From contig LWTL01000121.1 in assembly GCA_002101235.1 (NCBI GenBank), forward strand, positions 1 to 64,000: 64,000 nucleotides of DNA, written 5' to 3'. This document shows, in pieces, positions 23,554 to 45,606 of this stretch (its first letter is position 1; every line of letters starts with the position of its first letter). A model generated the notes under the pieces. It saw only the letters and a list, made by a program, of their open reading frames with translations, had not been told where the DNA came from and did not search any database. Source of the stretch: Cycloclasticus sp. symbiont of Bathymodiolus heckerae (GTDB lineage Bacteria > Pseudomonadota > Gammaproteobacteria > Methylococcales > Cycloclasticaceae). The translations under genes were made by a program, and so were the position numbers.

Positions 23554-24405
23554 CTATTTAAAATGTTCCAATACACCATCTAACTCATCTAGCGATGAAT
23601 AATGAATAACTATTTTGCCAACGCCCCTCCCAGAGTGACTGATATCAACTTTCGCGCCTAACCGCTCCGAGATGCTTTGCTGTAGCCTTTCAACATCAGG
23701 GTCTTTCATTTTTATTATCGTTTTTTTATCTTTATTTTTTAGCGCTTGCTTCACCAATGCCTCTGTTGCCCGCACGGACAACCCACGACTAACTACTTTA
23801 TTGGCCGCCATCAGTTGCTGACCTTCCTCTAACGCCAAAAGGGCCCGGCCATGGCCCATGTCAATCTTTCCAGCCCTAAGCAACTCTTTTGCTCCAACGC
23901 ATAACTCTAACAAACGGAGGAGGTTGCTTACTGCTACCCGAGAACGGCCCACGGCATCAGCAGCTTGTTGATGCGTCATATCAAATTCATTAATTAAACG
24001 CTGTAACGCTTCGGACTCATCCAACGTATTGAGGTCTTCTCGTTGGATATTCTCTATTAACGAAATAGCAATAGCCGCACGATCATCCACGTCCTTAATA
24101 ACAACAGTTACATCTTGCAAGCCTGCTAACTGCGCTGCTCGCCAACGGCGCTCACCCGCCAGGATTTCATAATGATTATCACCAATAGGGCGAACGACTA
24201 TTGGCTGAATAATACCCTGCGCGCTGATAGAGTCCGCTAGCTCTTGCAAAGGTATAGGATCAAACTCTGTCCTTGGCTGATATTTACCTCGCTGCAACAA
24301 ATCAATCGGCAGCGTACTTGCTTCATTTTTACTGCTATCACTGACCTTTGATTGACCCAGTAATGCATCTAGCCCTCTGCCTAAACCTCTTTTCTTTATT
24401 GCCAT
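23554..24405 (-). CDS. parB: Chromosome partitioning protein ParB
   Basis: 283 residues: N-terminal KKRGLGRGLDALLG, the ParB/Spo0J CTPase fold with GERRWRAAQLAG and the ENIQREDLN motif, then a HTH (THQQAADAVGRSRVAVSNLLRLL) that binds parS, and a dimerisation tail. Candidate parS sites lie 19 kb away in recF (42526-42541 and 43147-43162). Ten bases separate it from parA. Confidence 0.97.
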   Translation of the reverse strand: MAIKKRGLGRGLDALLGQSKVSDSSKNEASTLPIDLLQRGKYQPRTEFDPIPLQELADSISAQGIIQPIVVRPIGDNHYEILAGERRWRAAQLAGLQDVTVVIKDVDDRAAIAISLIENIQREDLNTLDESEALQRLINEFDMTHQQAADAVGRSRVAVSNLLRLLELCVGAKELLRAGKIDMGHGRALLALEEGQQLMAANKVVSRGLSVRATEALVKQALKNKDKKTIIKMKDPDVERLQQSISERLGAKVDISHSGRGVGKIVIHYSSLDELDGVLEHFK

Positions 24406-24415
24406 TTATTAAACC

Positions 24416-25180
24416 CTAATAATATTTTTTATCTAGCTCGCGCGCTAAATCCATATACGCTTGTGCGCCGCGCGAATTTTTATCATACAGAATCGCCGGC
24501 AACCCAAAACTTGGCGCCTCAGCAAGCCGAATATTCCTTGGCACCACCGTTTCAAACACTCTATCTGAAAAATGCGCCGTTAATTGTTCGCTAACATCGC
24601 GCGTCAAACGACTTCGACCATCAAACATAGTTCTGAGCAAACCTTCCAAACTAAGCCCTTTGTTCACCGTCTCTTGCACTTGCTTCAACGTATCCATTAA
24701 TGACGACAATCCTTCAAGGGCAAAATATTCACACTGCATCGGCACCAAGACACTATCCGCAGCAACCAATGCATTAATCGTTAACATGTTCATTGAAGGA
24801 GGGCAGTCAATAAAAATATAATCGTAATTTTCAACAAGCAACAATAGCGCACTTTTCAACCGACTTTCACGGCTATCGACCTCTAACAAATGAACCTCAG
24901 CGCCGGCAAGATCCATATTACTTGGCAACAAATCGTGCTTAATAACTTCTGAACTCACTACCGCTTTCACAGGGTCGCAACCCTCTAACAATACGTCGTA
25001 ACAAGAAAGCTCCACATCGGCTTTATCAACCCCGCAACCCATTGTCGCATTGCCTTGTGGATCCATGTCCACCAATAAAACACGCCGGCCCAATTCCGCA
25101 ACCGACGCCGCCAAGTTGATACTCGTTGTCGTTTTGCCTACTCCGCCTTTTTGATTAGCAATTGCTATTATTCTTGCCAC
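24416..25180 (-). CDS. parA: Chromosome partitioning ATPase ParA
   Basis: 254 residues, deviant Walker A KGGVGKTT near residue 11, Asp in LLVDMDPQGN and IFIDCPPS. It drives segregation of ParB-parS complexes on the nucleoid. It sits in the standard order mnmG-rsmG-parA-parB. Confidence 0.97.
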   Translation of the reverse strand: MARIIAIANQKGGVGKTTTSINLAASVAELGRRVLLVDMDPQGNATMGCGVDKADVELSCYDVLLEGCDPVKAVVSSEVIKHDLLPSNMDLAGAEVHLLEVDSRESRLKSALLLLVENYDYIFIDCPPSMNMLTINALVAADSVLVPMQCEYFALEGLSSLMDTLKQVQETVNKGLSLEGLLRTMFDGRSRLTRDVSEQLTAHFSDRVFETVVPRNIRLAEAPSFGLPAILYDKNSRGAQAYMDLARELDKKYY

Positions 25181-39261: not shown

Positions 39262-39434
39262 GATGAAATGTCCTAATTAATGCCTAGTTTAAAAATATAC
39301 GAAAAAAAACCAATGTAGGCCGCTGTTTTCTTTCGAGAAAAAGACTGCGCAGATTACTTTTTTTAACCCAAAAAGTCAATGTTTATATATGCCGGCCCTC
39401 TACTCTTTCTTCCTCTTGTTTCTTTCTTTTCCTG

Positions 39435-39443
39435 TGGATAACT
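39435..39443 (-). promoter_or_regulatory. DnaA box upstream of dnaA
   Basis: A perfect DnaA box (TTATCCACA on the minus strand) lies 60 bases before the dnaA GTG in the 241-base rpmH-dnaA gap. Likely used for dnaA autoregulation. The rest of this gap (39262-39502) is AT-rich and holds the opposed promoters of rpmH and dnaA; I see no gene in it. Confidence 0.75.
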
Positions 39444-39502
39444 TTTGTTTTAAAGTATATCCTTACTCACTGCTTTCTAAAACTTTATTAATAAGGATTA
39501 TT

Positions 39503-40828
39503 GTGTCAACACTCTGGGATAAATGCTTACAACGTCTTGAAGAGAACATTCCACCTCAACAGGTTAATACCTGGATTCGCCCCCTACAAGCACAAAATAA
39601 TGATGGTGATTTGTTTTTATTTGCTCCTAATAAATTTGTTTTAGATTGGGTTTCCGATAACTACCTTGATGATATCTCAAACATTATCAACCAGTTAACT
39701 AAACATAAATCTCAAGTATCTCTAAAAATAGGAAGCTCAAAAGCCCCAAGTTTAACGCCTCTAAAAAAGAGCGCGCCCTCTAATAAAAAAGCGCCTAGAG
39801 CTCAAATAAATCATAATTTAAATACTGCTTTTACCTTTGATTCTTTTGTCGTTGGGAAGTCTAACGAGCTCGCTAAAGCTGCCTCTATCCAAGTCTCAGA
39901 AAACCCAGGAAGTGCTTACAACCCTCTTTTTATTTACGGAGGAGTTGGTTTAGGTAAAACCCATTTAATGCATTCTATTGGTAATCAGATAATAAAAGAA
40001 AACAAGTATGCAAAGGTTAGCTTTTTATCTTCTGAGCGCTTTGTATCAGAAATGGTTCGGTCTTTACAAAACAACACTATTAATGACTTTAAAAACCACT
40101 ATCGTTCTTTAGACCTCCTTTTAATTGATGATATTCAATTTTTTGCTAAAAAAGAGCGCTCTCAAGAAGAGTTTTTTCACACTTTCAACACATTAATAGA
40201 AAACAACAAACAAATTGTTTTAACCTGTGACTGTTACCCAAAAGAAATCAATGGCCTAGAAGAGCGTCTTAAGTCGCGGTTTGGATGGGGTTTACCTATA
40301 GCCGTTGAACCTCCAGATTTAGAAACCCGCGTTGCCATTTTAAAAAGCAAGGCCGCTCTTAGTGGCGTTGACCTAGCTGATGAAGTTGCTTTCTTCATGG
40401 GCCACCGTATTAAATCCAATGTGCGTGAACTCGAAGGCGCTCTACGGCGCGTACTAGCAAACGCAAATTTCACGGGTCAACCCATTACCTTAGACTTTAC
40501 AAAAGAAGCTCTACGAGACCTCATTGCTCTTCAAAACAAACGAATCAGTATTGATAACATTCAAAAGACCGTTGCTGAATACTACAAAATAAGAATGTCA
40601 GACCTCCTTTCAGCTAAACGAACTCGCTCAATAGCAAGACCTAGACAAGTTGCTATGGCCCTTTCAAAAGAACTCACGAACTACAGTTTGCCAGAAATTG
40701 GTAGTCAATTTGGTGGCCGGGACCATACAACAGTTTTACACGCTACCCGGAAAATAAAAGAATTACGGAGTTCTGATCAAAAAATAGACGAAGATTATAT
40801 AAACCTGTTAAGAACCCTCTCTCATTAA
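39503..40828 (+). CDS. dnaA: Chromosomal replication initiator DnaA
   Basis: 441 residues from the GTG at 39503, which has AAGGA upstream and begins [17 protein letters not shown] like other DnaA proteins; the longer frame to 39389 is not supported. AAA+ domain with P-loop [13 protein letters not shown] and LLIDDIQFF, and the C-terminal DnaA-box-binding HTH ending with [15 protein letters not shown]. Confidence 0.97.
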
Positions 40829-40996
40829 AAGGTTTAAGTTGTGGATAAAATGAGTGATATAGTTACAAACAAATTACCCACAAGCTATTTGTTTGTTAAC
40901 AACAAGATTAAAACAGTATAACTCGTTGATTTTAAAGCTAAAAAACAGCTTATCAACTGAATTTAAGCCCTTAATAACTATAATAAGTATTTAAAA
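40829..40996. other. Putative oriC (dnaA-dnaN intergenic region)
   Basis: 168 AT-rich bases with a perfect DnaA box on the minus strand at 40840-40848, a one-mismatch box TTACCCACA at 40874-40882 and a weaker TTATCAACT at 40950-40958. There is also an A/T-rich tract towards dnaN. Gene direction changes at dnaA, from mostly minus to the left to mostly plus to the right, as expected at an origin. The box number is low, so part of the origin could lie in the rpmH-dnaA gap. Confidence 0.6.
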
Positions 40997-42097
40997 ATGA
41001 AATTAAATATTAATAAAGAAGATATATTAAACCCGTTACAAAAAGTTTTTGGTGTTATTGAGCGAAGGCAAACACTTCCTATTTTATCAAACGTTTTTTT
41101 TTCAATAAGTAACGGTTACTTAAATTTAATAGGTACTGACCTTGAAGTTCAAGTTGGTTCTACTTCAAAGACAGAGTGTAACGAATGTTTTAAAACAACA
41201 ATTCCCGCAAGGAAATTATTAGATATTTGTCGCTCTCTTCCTGATGGGGCTGTAATTAATTTAACCTTTAATGAAAACACCTTAATAATTAAATCAGGTA
41301 AAAGCCGGTTTACATTAAGAACATTAGCAGCAGATGAGTATCCATTATTTGATGAGTCAAACTATATTCATGAAATTAGTATTGAACAAAAGGTTTTATC
41401 TAAAGCGTTTAGTAAAACTATTTTTTGCATGGCGCAACAAGACGTTAGATATTACTTAAATGGGTTAATGATGGAGATTGTTGAAGGTGAGCTTCAAACC
41501 GTTGCTTCAGATGGACATCGATTAGCATTATCTAAAAACACAATTGAGAACGAAAGCCAGTCAATAAGTCAGGTTATTATTCCAAGAAAAGCAGCTCAAG
41601 AACTACTTAAATTAGTAGAAAAAGAAGAAGGCTCTGTTGATATAAAATTTGCTAAAAACAGTATTAAATTCACATTAGGTGATATTCAATTAAACGCAAA
41701 ACTGATTGATGGACGTTTCCCAGATTTTAAAAATGTTGTGCCCGATGAAAGTAAGCATAACCTGATGGTGAATAAACAAGTATTCAAATCAGCTCTTTCA
41801 CGTGTTTCAATATTATCGAATGAGAAATATAAAGGTATTCGTTTAGACCTATCACCACAATTAATGACAATTAATGCAAACAACCCAGAACAAGACGAAG
41901 CAGAAGAAGAGGTTGTTGTCGATTATACAGGGGATGAAATTAGCATGGGCTTTAACTCAAGTTACCTAATGGACGCACTTAACGTTATTGAATCCGAAGA
42001 AATAAAAGTATCGTTTACAGATACAAACAGCAGTTGCTTGCTGGAAAACCCTAGCGACAAAAGTAGTCGTTTTATTATTATGCCTATGCGCATATAA
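40997..42097 (+). CDS. dnaN: DNA polymerase III beta subunit (sliding clamp)
   Basis: 366 residues, three repeated clamp domains; QKVFGVIERRQTLPILSNV at the start and the C-terminal FIIMPMRI are typical. No good ribosome site is seen directly before the ATG. Confidence 0.97.
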   Translation: MKLNINKEDILNPLQKVFGVIERRQTLPILSNVFFSISNGYLNLIGTDLEVQVGSTSKTECNECFKTTIPARKLLDICRSLPDGAVINLTFNENTLIIKSGKSRFTLRTLAADEYPLFDESNYIHEISIEQKVLSKAFSKTIFCMAQQDVRYYLNGLMMEIVEGELQTVASDGHRLALSKNTIENESQSISQVIIPRKAAQELLKLVEKEEGSVDIKFAKNSIKFTLGDIQLNAKLIDGRFPDFKNVVPDESKHNLMVNKQVFKSALSRVSILSNEKYKGIRLDLSPQLMTINANNPEQDEAEEEVVVDYTGDEISMGFNSSYLMDALNVIESEEIKVSFTDTNSSCLLENPSDKSSRFIIMPMRI

Positions 42098-42110: not shown

Positions 42111-43178
42111 TTGTCTTTAGTAGATATCCAGATTCAGGATGTAAGGAATATAAACAGAATTCATTTTCAGCCGTCGGCTGGCTTAAATATTATTGTTGGG
42201 CCTAATGGAAGTGGAAAGACATCGTTATTAGAATCTCTTTATATTTTAAGTAGAGCTAGATCCTTTAGAACCCAAAATATTAATAAGGTTTTATCGCACG
42301 GAAAGAGCAAGTTAATTGTTTTTTCAAAACTTGATGATGGTGAAACGATAAAAAAAATAGCGATACAAAAAAACAAAGTAGAAACCGTTATTAGAATAAA
42401 CGGTAAGACAGAAAAAAAAGCGTCTGAATTATCTAAGCATCTCCATACACATTTAATACGGCCGGAATCTCAAGCCTTGCTTGAGGGTGGTTCTACAGGA
42501 AGACGCTCATTTATTGATTTGGGTGTGTTCCACGTGAAACATTCATTCCTTGAAGCTTTAAAGAACTACAACCTTTGCTTAAAAAACAGGAATAAGCTGT
42601 TAAAGCAAAAGGAATTTAAGACGTTACCTGTATGGGGTAATAAGCTTGCTGAATACGGTATAATAATCACAACCGAAAGAAGCGCTTATGTAGAGCGTTT
42701 TGAGCTAGAATTGAACCCTATTGTAAAAATCTTAATTGGCGATGTTGAGGTTGATGTTAAGTATACAAATGGTTGGCTTGATAAAGTGACTTTGCCTGAA
42801 GCTTTAGAACGCTCTCTTGAAAAAGATAAGCGCTATGGTTATACGACAACAGGTGCACACAAAGCGGATCTCAAGATTTTTATAGACGGTAACGCCGCGC
42901 AAGATTATTTATCGAGAGGGCGGATGAAGCTCTTGGTGATAGCGATGTATTTGGCGCAGATTAAATTAATGGGCCAAATTGAATTGAAATCAGTTTGTGT
43001 TTTACTTGATGACTTGGCGGCTGAGCTGGACGTTAAAAGTTTTAGAAAGGTAATGTTGTTTCTTGTATCGTTAGGTATTCAGGTTTTTGTAACAACAACC
43101 AATGAAAAAGCCTTTTTGGGGTTTATTGGAAAAGGTGATGCTAAATTGTTTCACGTGAAACACGGCGCTATATTTTGA
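42111..43178 (+). CDS. recF: DNA replication and repair protein RecF
   Basis: 355 residues from a TTG start 13 bases after dnaN; the first residues SLVDIQIQDVRNI fit RecF. P-loop GPNGSGKTS, an ABC-type signature (YLSRGRMKLL) and the Walker B LLDDLAAELD. An SMC-like ATPase that loads RecA at gaps. Two ParB-site sequences are embedded in its coding frame, both encoding FHVKH. Confidence 0.96.
   Translation: MSLVDIQIQDVRNINRIHFQPSAGLNIIVGPNGSGKTSLLESLYILSRARSFRTQNINKVLSHGKSKLIVFSKLDDGETIKKIAIQKNKVETVIRINGKTEKKASELSKHLHTHLIRPESQALLEGGSTGRRSFIDLGVFHVKHSFLEALKNYNLCLKNRNKLLKQKEFKTLPVWGNKLAEYGIIITTERSAYVERFELELNPIVKILIGDVEVDVKYTNGWLDKVTLPEALERSLEKDKRYGYTTTGAHKADLKIFIDGNAAQDYLSRGRMKLLVIAMYLAQIKLMGQIELKSVCVLLDDLAAELDVKSFRKVMLFLVSLGIQVFVTTTNEKAFLGFIGKGDAKLFHVKHGAIF
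42526..42541. promoter_or_regulatory. parS: parS-like site 1 (one mismatch)
   Basis: TGTTCCACGTGAAACA differs by one base from the bacterial consensus TGTTTCACGTGAAACA. Lies within recF, 1.5 kb from oriC. Confidence 0.75.
43147..43162. promoter_or_regulatory. parS: parS site 2 (perfect)
   Basis: Exact match to the 16-bp palindromic parS consensus TGTTTCACGTGAAACA, near the end of recF. It should be bound by the ParB encoded at 23554-24405. Confidence 0.9.
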
Positions 43179-43191
43179 AAAGGAAAGTTAA

Positions 43192-45606
<2,415 letters not shown>

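Follow-up and report, generated by a model that had tools for sequence, protein, structure and literature searches.

Gene Organization and the Two Sites in recF

The window, i.e., the whole stretch of 64,000 nucleotides of the Cycloclasticus symbiont genome that was analysed, contains the gene order dnaA-dnaN-recF-gyrB on the plus strand. The dnaA gene (39389-40828, TIGR00362) is followed by dnaN (40997-42097, TIGR00663), recF (42111-43178, TTG start; TIGR00611, 324 bits), and gyrB (43192-45606, GTG start; NF011501). The gap between dnaA and dnaN (40829-40996) harbors a perfect DnaA box at 40840-40848 on the minus strand and a box with one mismatch at 40874-40882 on the plus strand, which marks the neighborhood of the replication origin, the exact origin being putative.

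The recF gene carries two 16-bp palindromes that match the parS consensus TGTTYCACGTGRAACA. Site 1 (42526-42541, TGTTCCACGTGAAACA) is read through the codons GTG TTC CAC GTG AAA CAT at 42525-42542 as VFHVKH, and is orthologous in position to parS1 of Pseudomonas aeruginosa. Site 2 (43147-43162, TGTTTCACGTGAAACA), a perfect palindrome, is read through TTG TTT CAC GTG AAA CAC at 43146-43163 as LFHVKH near the RecF C-terminus, and is orthologous in position to P. aeruginosa parS2. Re-reading of the sequence confirms the sites, coordinates, frame, and peptides given in the original prediction, which was wrong, however, in calling site 1 near-perfect, since it is a normal variant of parS. The starts of the two sites are separated by 621 bp, a multiple of three, and both are thus read in the one recF frame, as had been pointed out. 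This is true but carries little weight as evidence, because one of the three frames of the palindrome TGTTTCACGTGAAACA, frame 1, runs into a stop (TGT TTC ACG TGA), leaving two open frames and a probability of 1/2 that the two sites share one by chance. Measured from the dnaA start, the sites lie ca. 3.1 and 3.8 kb downstream, the origin-proximal location expected of parS, with the origin position itself putative. By eye, a possible weak promoter of gyrB, TTGTTT-17-TATATT, can be made out at 43146-43174, where it overlaps site 2; the promoter scan did not report it.

A scan of the window at up to three mismatches gave three matches against 0.32 expected, only two of which are real. These two are also the only matches to the consensus with zero or one mismatch in the whole genome, which comprises 2.13 Mb on 123 contigs and is rated 100% complete; two further matches, at two mismatches, are degenerate. 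The scan for additional sites that had been proposed thus yields no third one at this threshold, and both recognized parS sites of the symbiont are therefore in recF.

The partner proteins are encoded on the minus strand at 23554-25180, 17-19 kb from the sites. The parB product (23554-24405; TIGR00180, 175.8 bits) aligns with solved ParB relatives, and the adjoining parA (24416-25180) has matches to the ParA/MinD family that are below the equivalog cut-offs. ParB and Noc proteins are told apart by positions 173, 179, 184, and 201 in Caulobacter numbering (PMC7383237), at which the window ParB, as read from the alignment, has R, L, E, and G. These reading residues are of the parS type, with Arg173 and Gly201 and without the Noc-type lysine at 179 or 184.

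Conservation in the Genus and the Order

Among 17 other genomes of the genus, a recF match was found in 14, and in all 14 parS occurs nowhere but in recF. Both sites are present with the 621-bp spacing in 13 of these; in the remaining one (G009), site 1 is lost, the peptide is changed to FHQKH, and a single parS is left. One genus from another family of the order (g4) also has both sites at the same places. Six other Methylococcales (L033, L034, L039, L043, L049, and L052) resemble the window in keeping the site 2 parS in recF but differ from it in the loss of site 1, where FHV is replaced by residues such as FND, and in having a second parS 38 bp downstream of site 2, beyond the end of recF. 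In these Methylococcales the extra parS restores the number of sites to two.

Codon Constraint across the Gammaproteobacteria

The class was sampled with 229 gammaproteobacterial genomes, mostly one or two per family, and ParB was detected in 213 of them. The site 1 motif DWGxFHV[KE] is present in 104 genomes, with the parS core intact in 100 of these. The codons that matter for parS are almost invariant in the 104: all 104 have a codon ending in TG for x and one ending in A for Lys/Glu, and 102 each use CAC for His and GTG for Val. The neighboring codons of the same genes vary freely (Asp is GAT in 76 and GAC in 28, all four Gly codons occur, at 28/38/21/17, and Phe is divided between TTT, 46, and TTC, 58), and synonymous sites are therefore otherwise saturated. 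The Phe codon is free because parS accepts both pyrimidines. At site 2, nearly all motif matches likewise have the parS codons.

Among the named loci, parS-compatible codons are found at site 1 in 45 of 47, where local codon usage would predict 0.8, and at site 2 in 63 of 82, where it would predict 4.7. In a ranking of 191 recF columns by the excess of one codon, the top place is taken by the Val codon of site 2 (z = 15.0) and the next by that of site 1 (z = 10.2). The 22 highest columns also include the x codon of site 1 and, from both sites, the His and the Glu/Lys codons. These z values should not be read as probabilities, since the sampled genomes lack independence and the pattern searches favor genes with the peptide. 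The joint constraint of RecF coding and ParB site that had been proposed is thus strongly supported by the codon conservation. A further column, 461 of the recF alignment (the Ile immediately after site 2), has ATA in 32 of 57 genes versus 9.4 expected, possibly owing to some other signal here, such as an overlapping gyrB promoter.

Different Behavior of the Two Peptides

The two sites differ in what happens to the peptide when parS is lost. At site 1 of 131 recF genes, parS and FHV are both kept in 49 and both lost in 79, and FHV persists without parS in 3, whereas the corresponding numbers at site 2 are 89, 8, and 34. FHV is thus retained after parS loss in 3 of 82 genes at site 1 and in 34 of 42 at site 2 (Fisher p = 2e-19, uncorrected for relatedness); a few of the site 2 assignments are affected by the motif parser (e.g., L103), which leaves the contrast between the sites unchanged. 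The losses at site 1 span 11 clades, and in 9 of the 11 the listed example also lacks FHV. E. coli RecF reads CFHNEP at this position, and FND or FHSEP is present there in relatives that have their parS elsewhere. As FHV vanishes along with parS at site 1, the amino acids there follow the DNA site, and the need to keep it appears, from these comparisons, to have dictated some RecF residues across the Gammaproteobacteria.

At site 2, FHV outlives parS, often with a parS-breaking CAT codon, and RecF therefore needs this peptide anyway. Vibrio and Shewanella keep MFHVE[HQ] there with CAT, although ParB is present, and most of them have an exact parS elsewhere in the genome, outside recF, so that placement in recF is not a requirement. 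The original prediction expected FHVKH only where parS is kept, which holds for site 1 but fails for site 2. It also regarded FHV[K/E]H on parS-breaking codons as speaking against ParB binding; this combination does occur at site 2 of Vibrio and Shewanella, and ParB loading in the symbiont is not thereby refuted. Instead, it shows a separate protein-level constraint at site 2.

The codons of the broken sites are themselves not free. At site 2 of Vibrio, Shewanella, and E. coli (L040, L051, L061, L111, and others), there is hardly any departure from GTG, mostly together with GAA, despite the CAT or ACC that breaks parS. In the 19 named loci where site 2 is broken by CAT (the variant of the parS 16-mer being TGTTTCATGTGGAACA), Val is GTG in 19 of 19 compared to 5.6 expected, and in E. 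coli, where Thr has replaced His, GTG GAA is preserved. E. coli is not known to have a chromosomal ParABS. One Shewanella-like genome (L131) has GTT instead of GTG. Binding to a full parS does not explain the fixed GTG in the CAT-broken loci and in E. coli, nor does it explain site 2 of Pantoea coffeiphila (L101), in whose genome no ParB was detected and yet an intact TGTTCCACGTGGAACA is present at site 2 of recF.

The right half retained at these broken copies of site 2, GTGGAAC, is a half-parS on the other strand, and such half-sites are bound by P. aeruginosa ParB (PMC7022226). Half-parS binding is a possible reason for the fixed GTG, but for V. cholerae no half-site binding is reported (PMC7022226).

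A few lineages deserve mention in connection with the presence of ParB. In family f35, one genome (G087) has ParB and an intact site 2, and its relative of 1.0 Mb (G232) has no ParB match and a site 2 pattern match with a broken parS (CACGTAAAACG). In the order of G092 (family f40), ParB was matched in 0 of 43 genomes and the site 2 pattern in one; this order provides no internal positive control and is left out of the argument. A group of Enterobacterales with intact site 2 (G505 and others) was considered as ParB-lacking enterobacteria and rejected, since these genomes are Aeromonas-like and their named relatives have ParB, and they therefore provide no counter-example.

Proposed Function and Alternatives

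We consider it highly probable (roughly 0.92) that this bacterium uses the two 16-mers as its chromosomal centromere (parS), at which ParB would load. The sites, their uniqueness, their conservation, the codon constraint, the gene neighborhood, and the parS-type ParB are observed here. ParB binding and loading at both sites in the symbiont are inferred by analogy, as binding at the orthologous sites, spreading, and the role in segregation come from experiments on P. aeruginosa (PMC4368675, PMC5521831). In the proposed mechanism, ParB would load on both parS, clamp, and slide onto the flanking DNA, and ParA would move the newly copied origin. The sites would be located in recF because a recF-borne parS is an old gammaproteobacterial arrangement. 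Selection for ParB binding would hold the third-base choices in CAC, GTG, RAA, and xTG and, at site 1, also the RecF residues FHV[K/E], whereas at site 2 FHV[K/E] would also be wanted by RecF or by some other signal, the peptide there surviving the loss of parS.

An alternative scenario is that RecF needs the FHV[K/E]H peptides for its own function and that the resemblance to parS is a by-product of codon use. The site 2 peptide, kept in parS-lost genes across Vibrio and Shewanella, is what such a scenario would give, but the codon choice goes far beyond local usage, the site 1 peptide is gone together with parS in 79 of 82 genes, and the two sites are the sole parS of a genome that has ParB. 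A constraint from the protein only is thus rejected for site 1 and partly true for site 2, and as an account of both sites it is very unlikely. Another possibility is that the main role of ParB binding at the sites is control of the dnaA-dnaN-recF-gyrB operon, and not that of a centromere. In P. aeruginosa, an excess of ParB does lower the expression of genes in the vicinity of parS1-4, but removal of ParB or of parS1-4 causes no rise in expression of the genes beside the intragenic parS1 and parS2 (PMC5521831). In addition, the symbiont has no other parS to serve segregation, and operon control as the main role is very unlikely. Chance matches, finally, have only the short length of the sites in their favor; the 2.1 Mb contain two exact matches, which both fall in recF close to dnaA and have the same codons conserved throughout the class. 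This leaves chance the least credible option, and the window and genome scans refute it as the origin of both sites.

Returning to the centromere, a joint reading that we favor with some reservation is that the recF centromere is ancestral in the Gammaproteobacteria, that the DNA requirement of ParB wrote the RecF residues at site 1, and that a further DNA-level signal, GTGGAAC, is held at the broken site 2. The locus offers a clear natural example of bases that have served a centromere and a protein together over a very long time, in which paired lineages that keep or lose the DNA site separate the residues held for the protein from those held for the DNA. A genome with its entire recognized centromere in one coding gene is also a simple system for the coexistence of transcription and ParB loading.

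Comparison with Known Systems

The closest known system is that of P. aeruginosa, which likewise has two parS inside recF, close to dnaA. Its parS1 and parS2 are known to lie within recF (PMC5521831) and to be bound by ParB, and any one of parS1-4 is enough for segregation (PMC4368675). The two sites were inactivated there by synonymous changes designed to leave the protein unaltered, GTG becoming GTa in parS1 and the TG being left in parS2 (PMC4368675), a pattern that fits the same pair of RecF motifs, with VFHVEP for parS1 and MFHVEH for parS2. These peptides occur at the window's two RecF positions in L091, the Pseudomonas relative used for the comparison in place of PAO1, and the P. aeruginosa parS1 sequence, TGTTCCACGTGGAACC, is that found at site 1 of L091. 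The systems differ in the arms, GTGGAAC in P. aeruginosa and GTGAAAC in the window, which places Glu in RecF of the former and Lys in that of the latter. They differ also in number, as P. aeruginosa has another two sites of high affinity, located outside recF, plus six weaker ones, while the symbiont genome has only two, both in recF.

Since parS1 and parS2 of P. aeruginosa were already known in recF, of which the original prediction was unaware, the window adds one more example to an established arrangement. The new elements are the class-wide codon constraint of parS in recF, on which we found no paper, and the contrast between site 1 and site 2, which we did not find described, in a literature search that covered subscription journals poorly. 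Compared to the chromosomal ParABS systems of B. subtilis, Caulobacter, and others, the parS consensus, the ParB reading residues, and the location of parS near the origin are alike; the host gene, here recF, is what differs from B. subtilis and Caulobacter.
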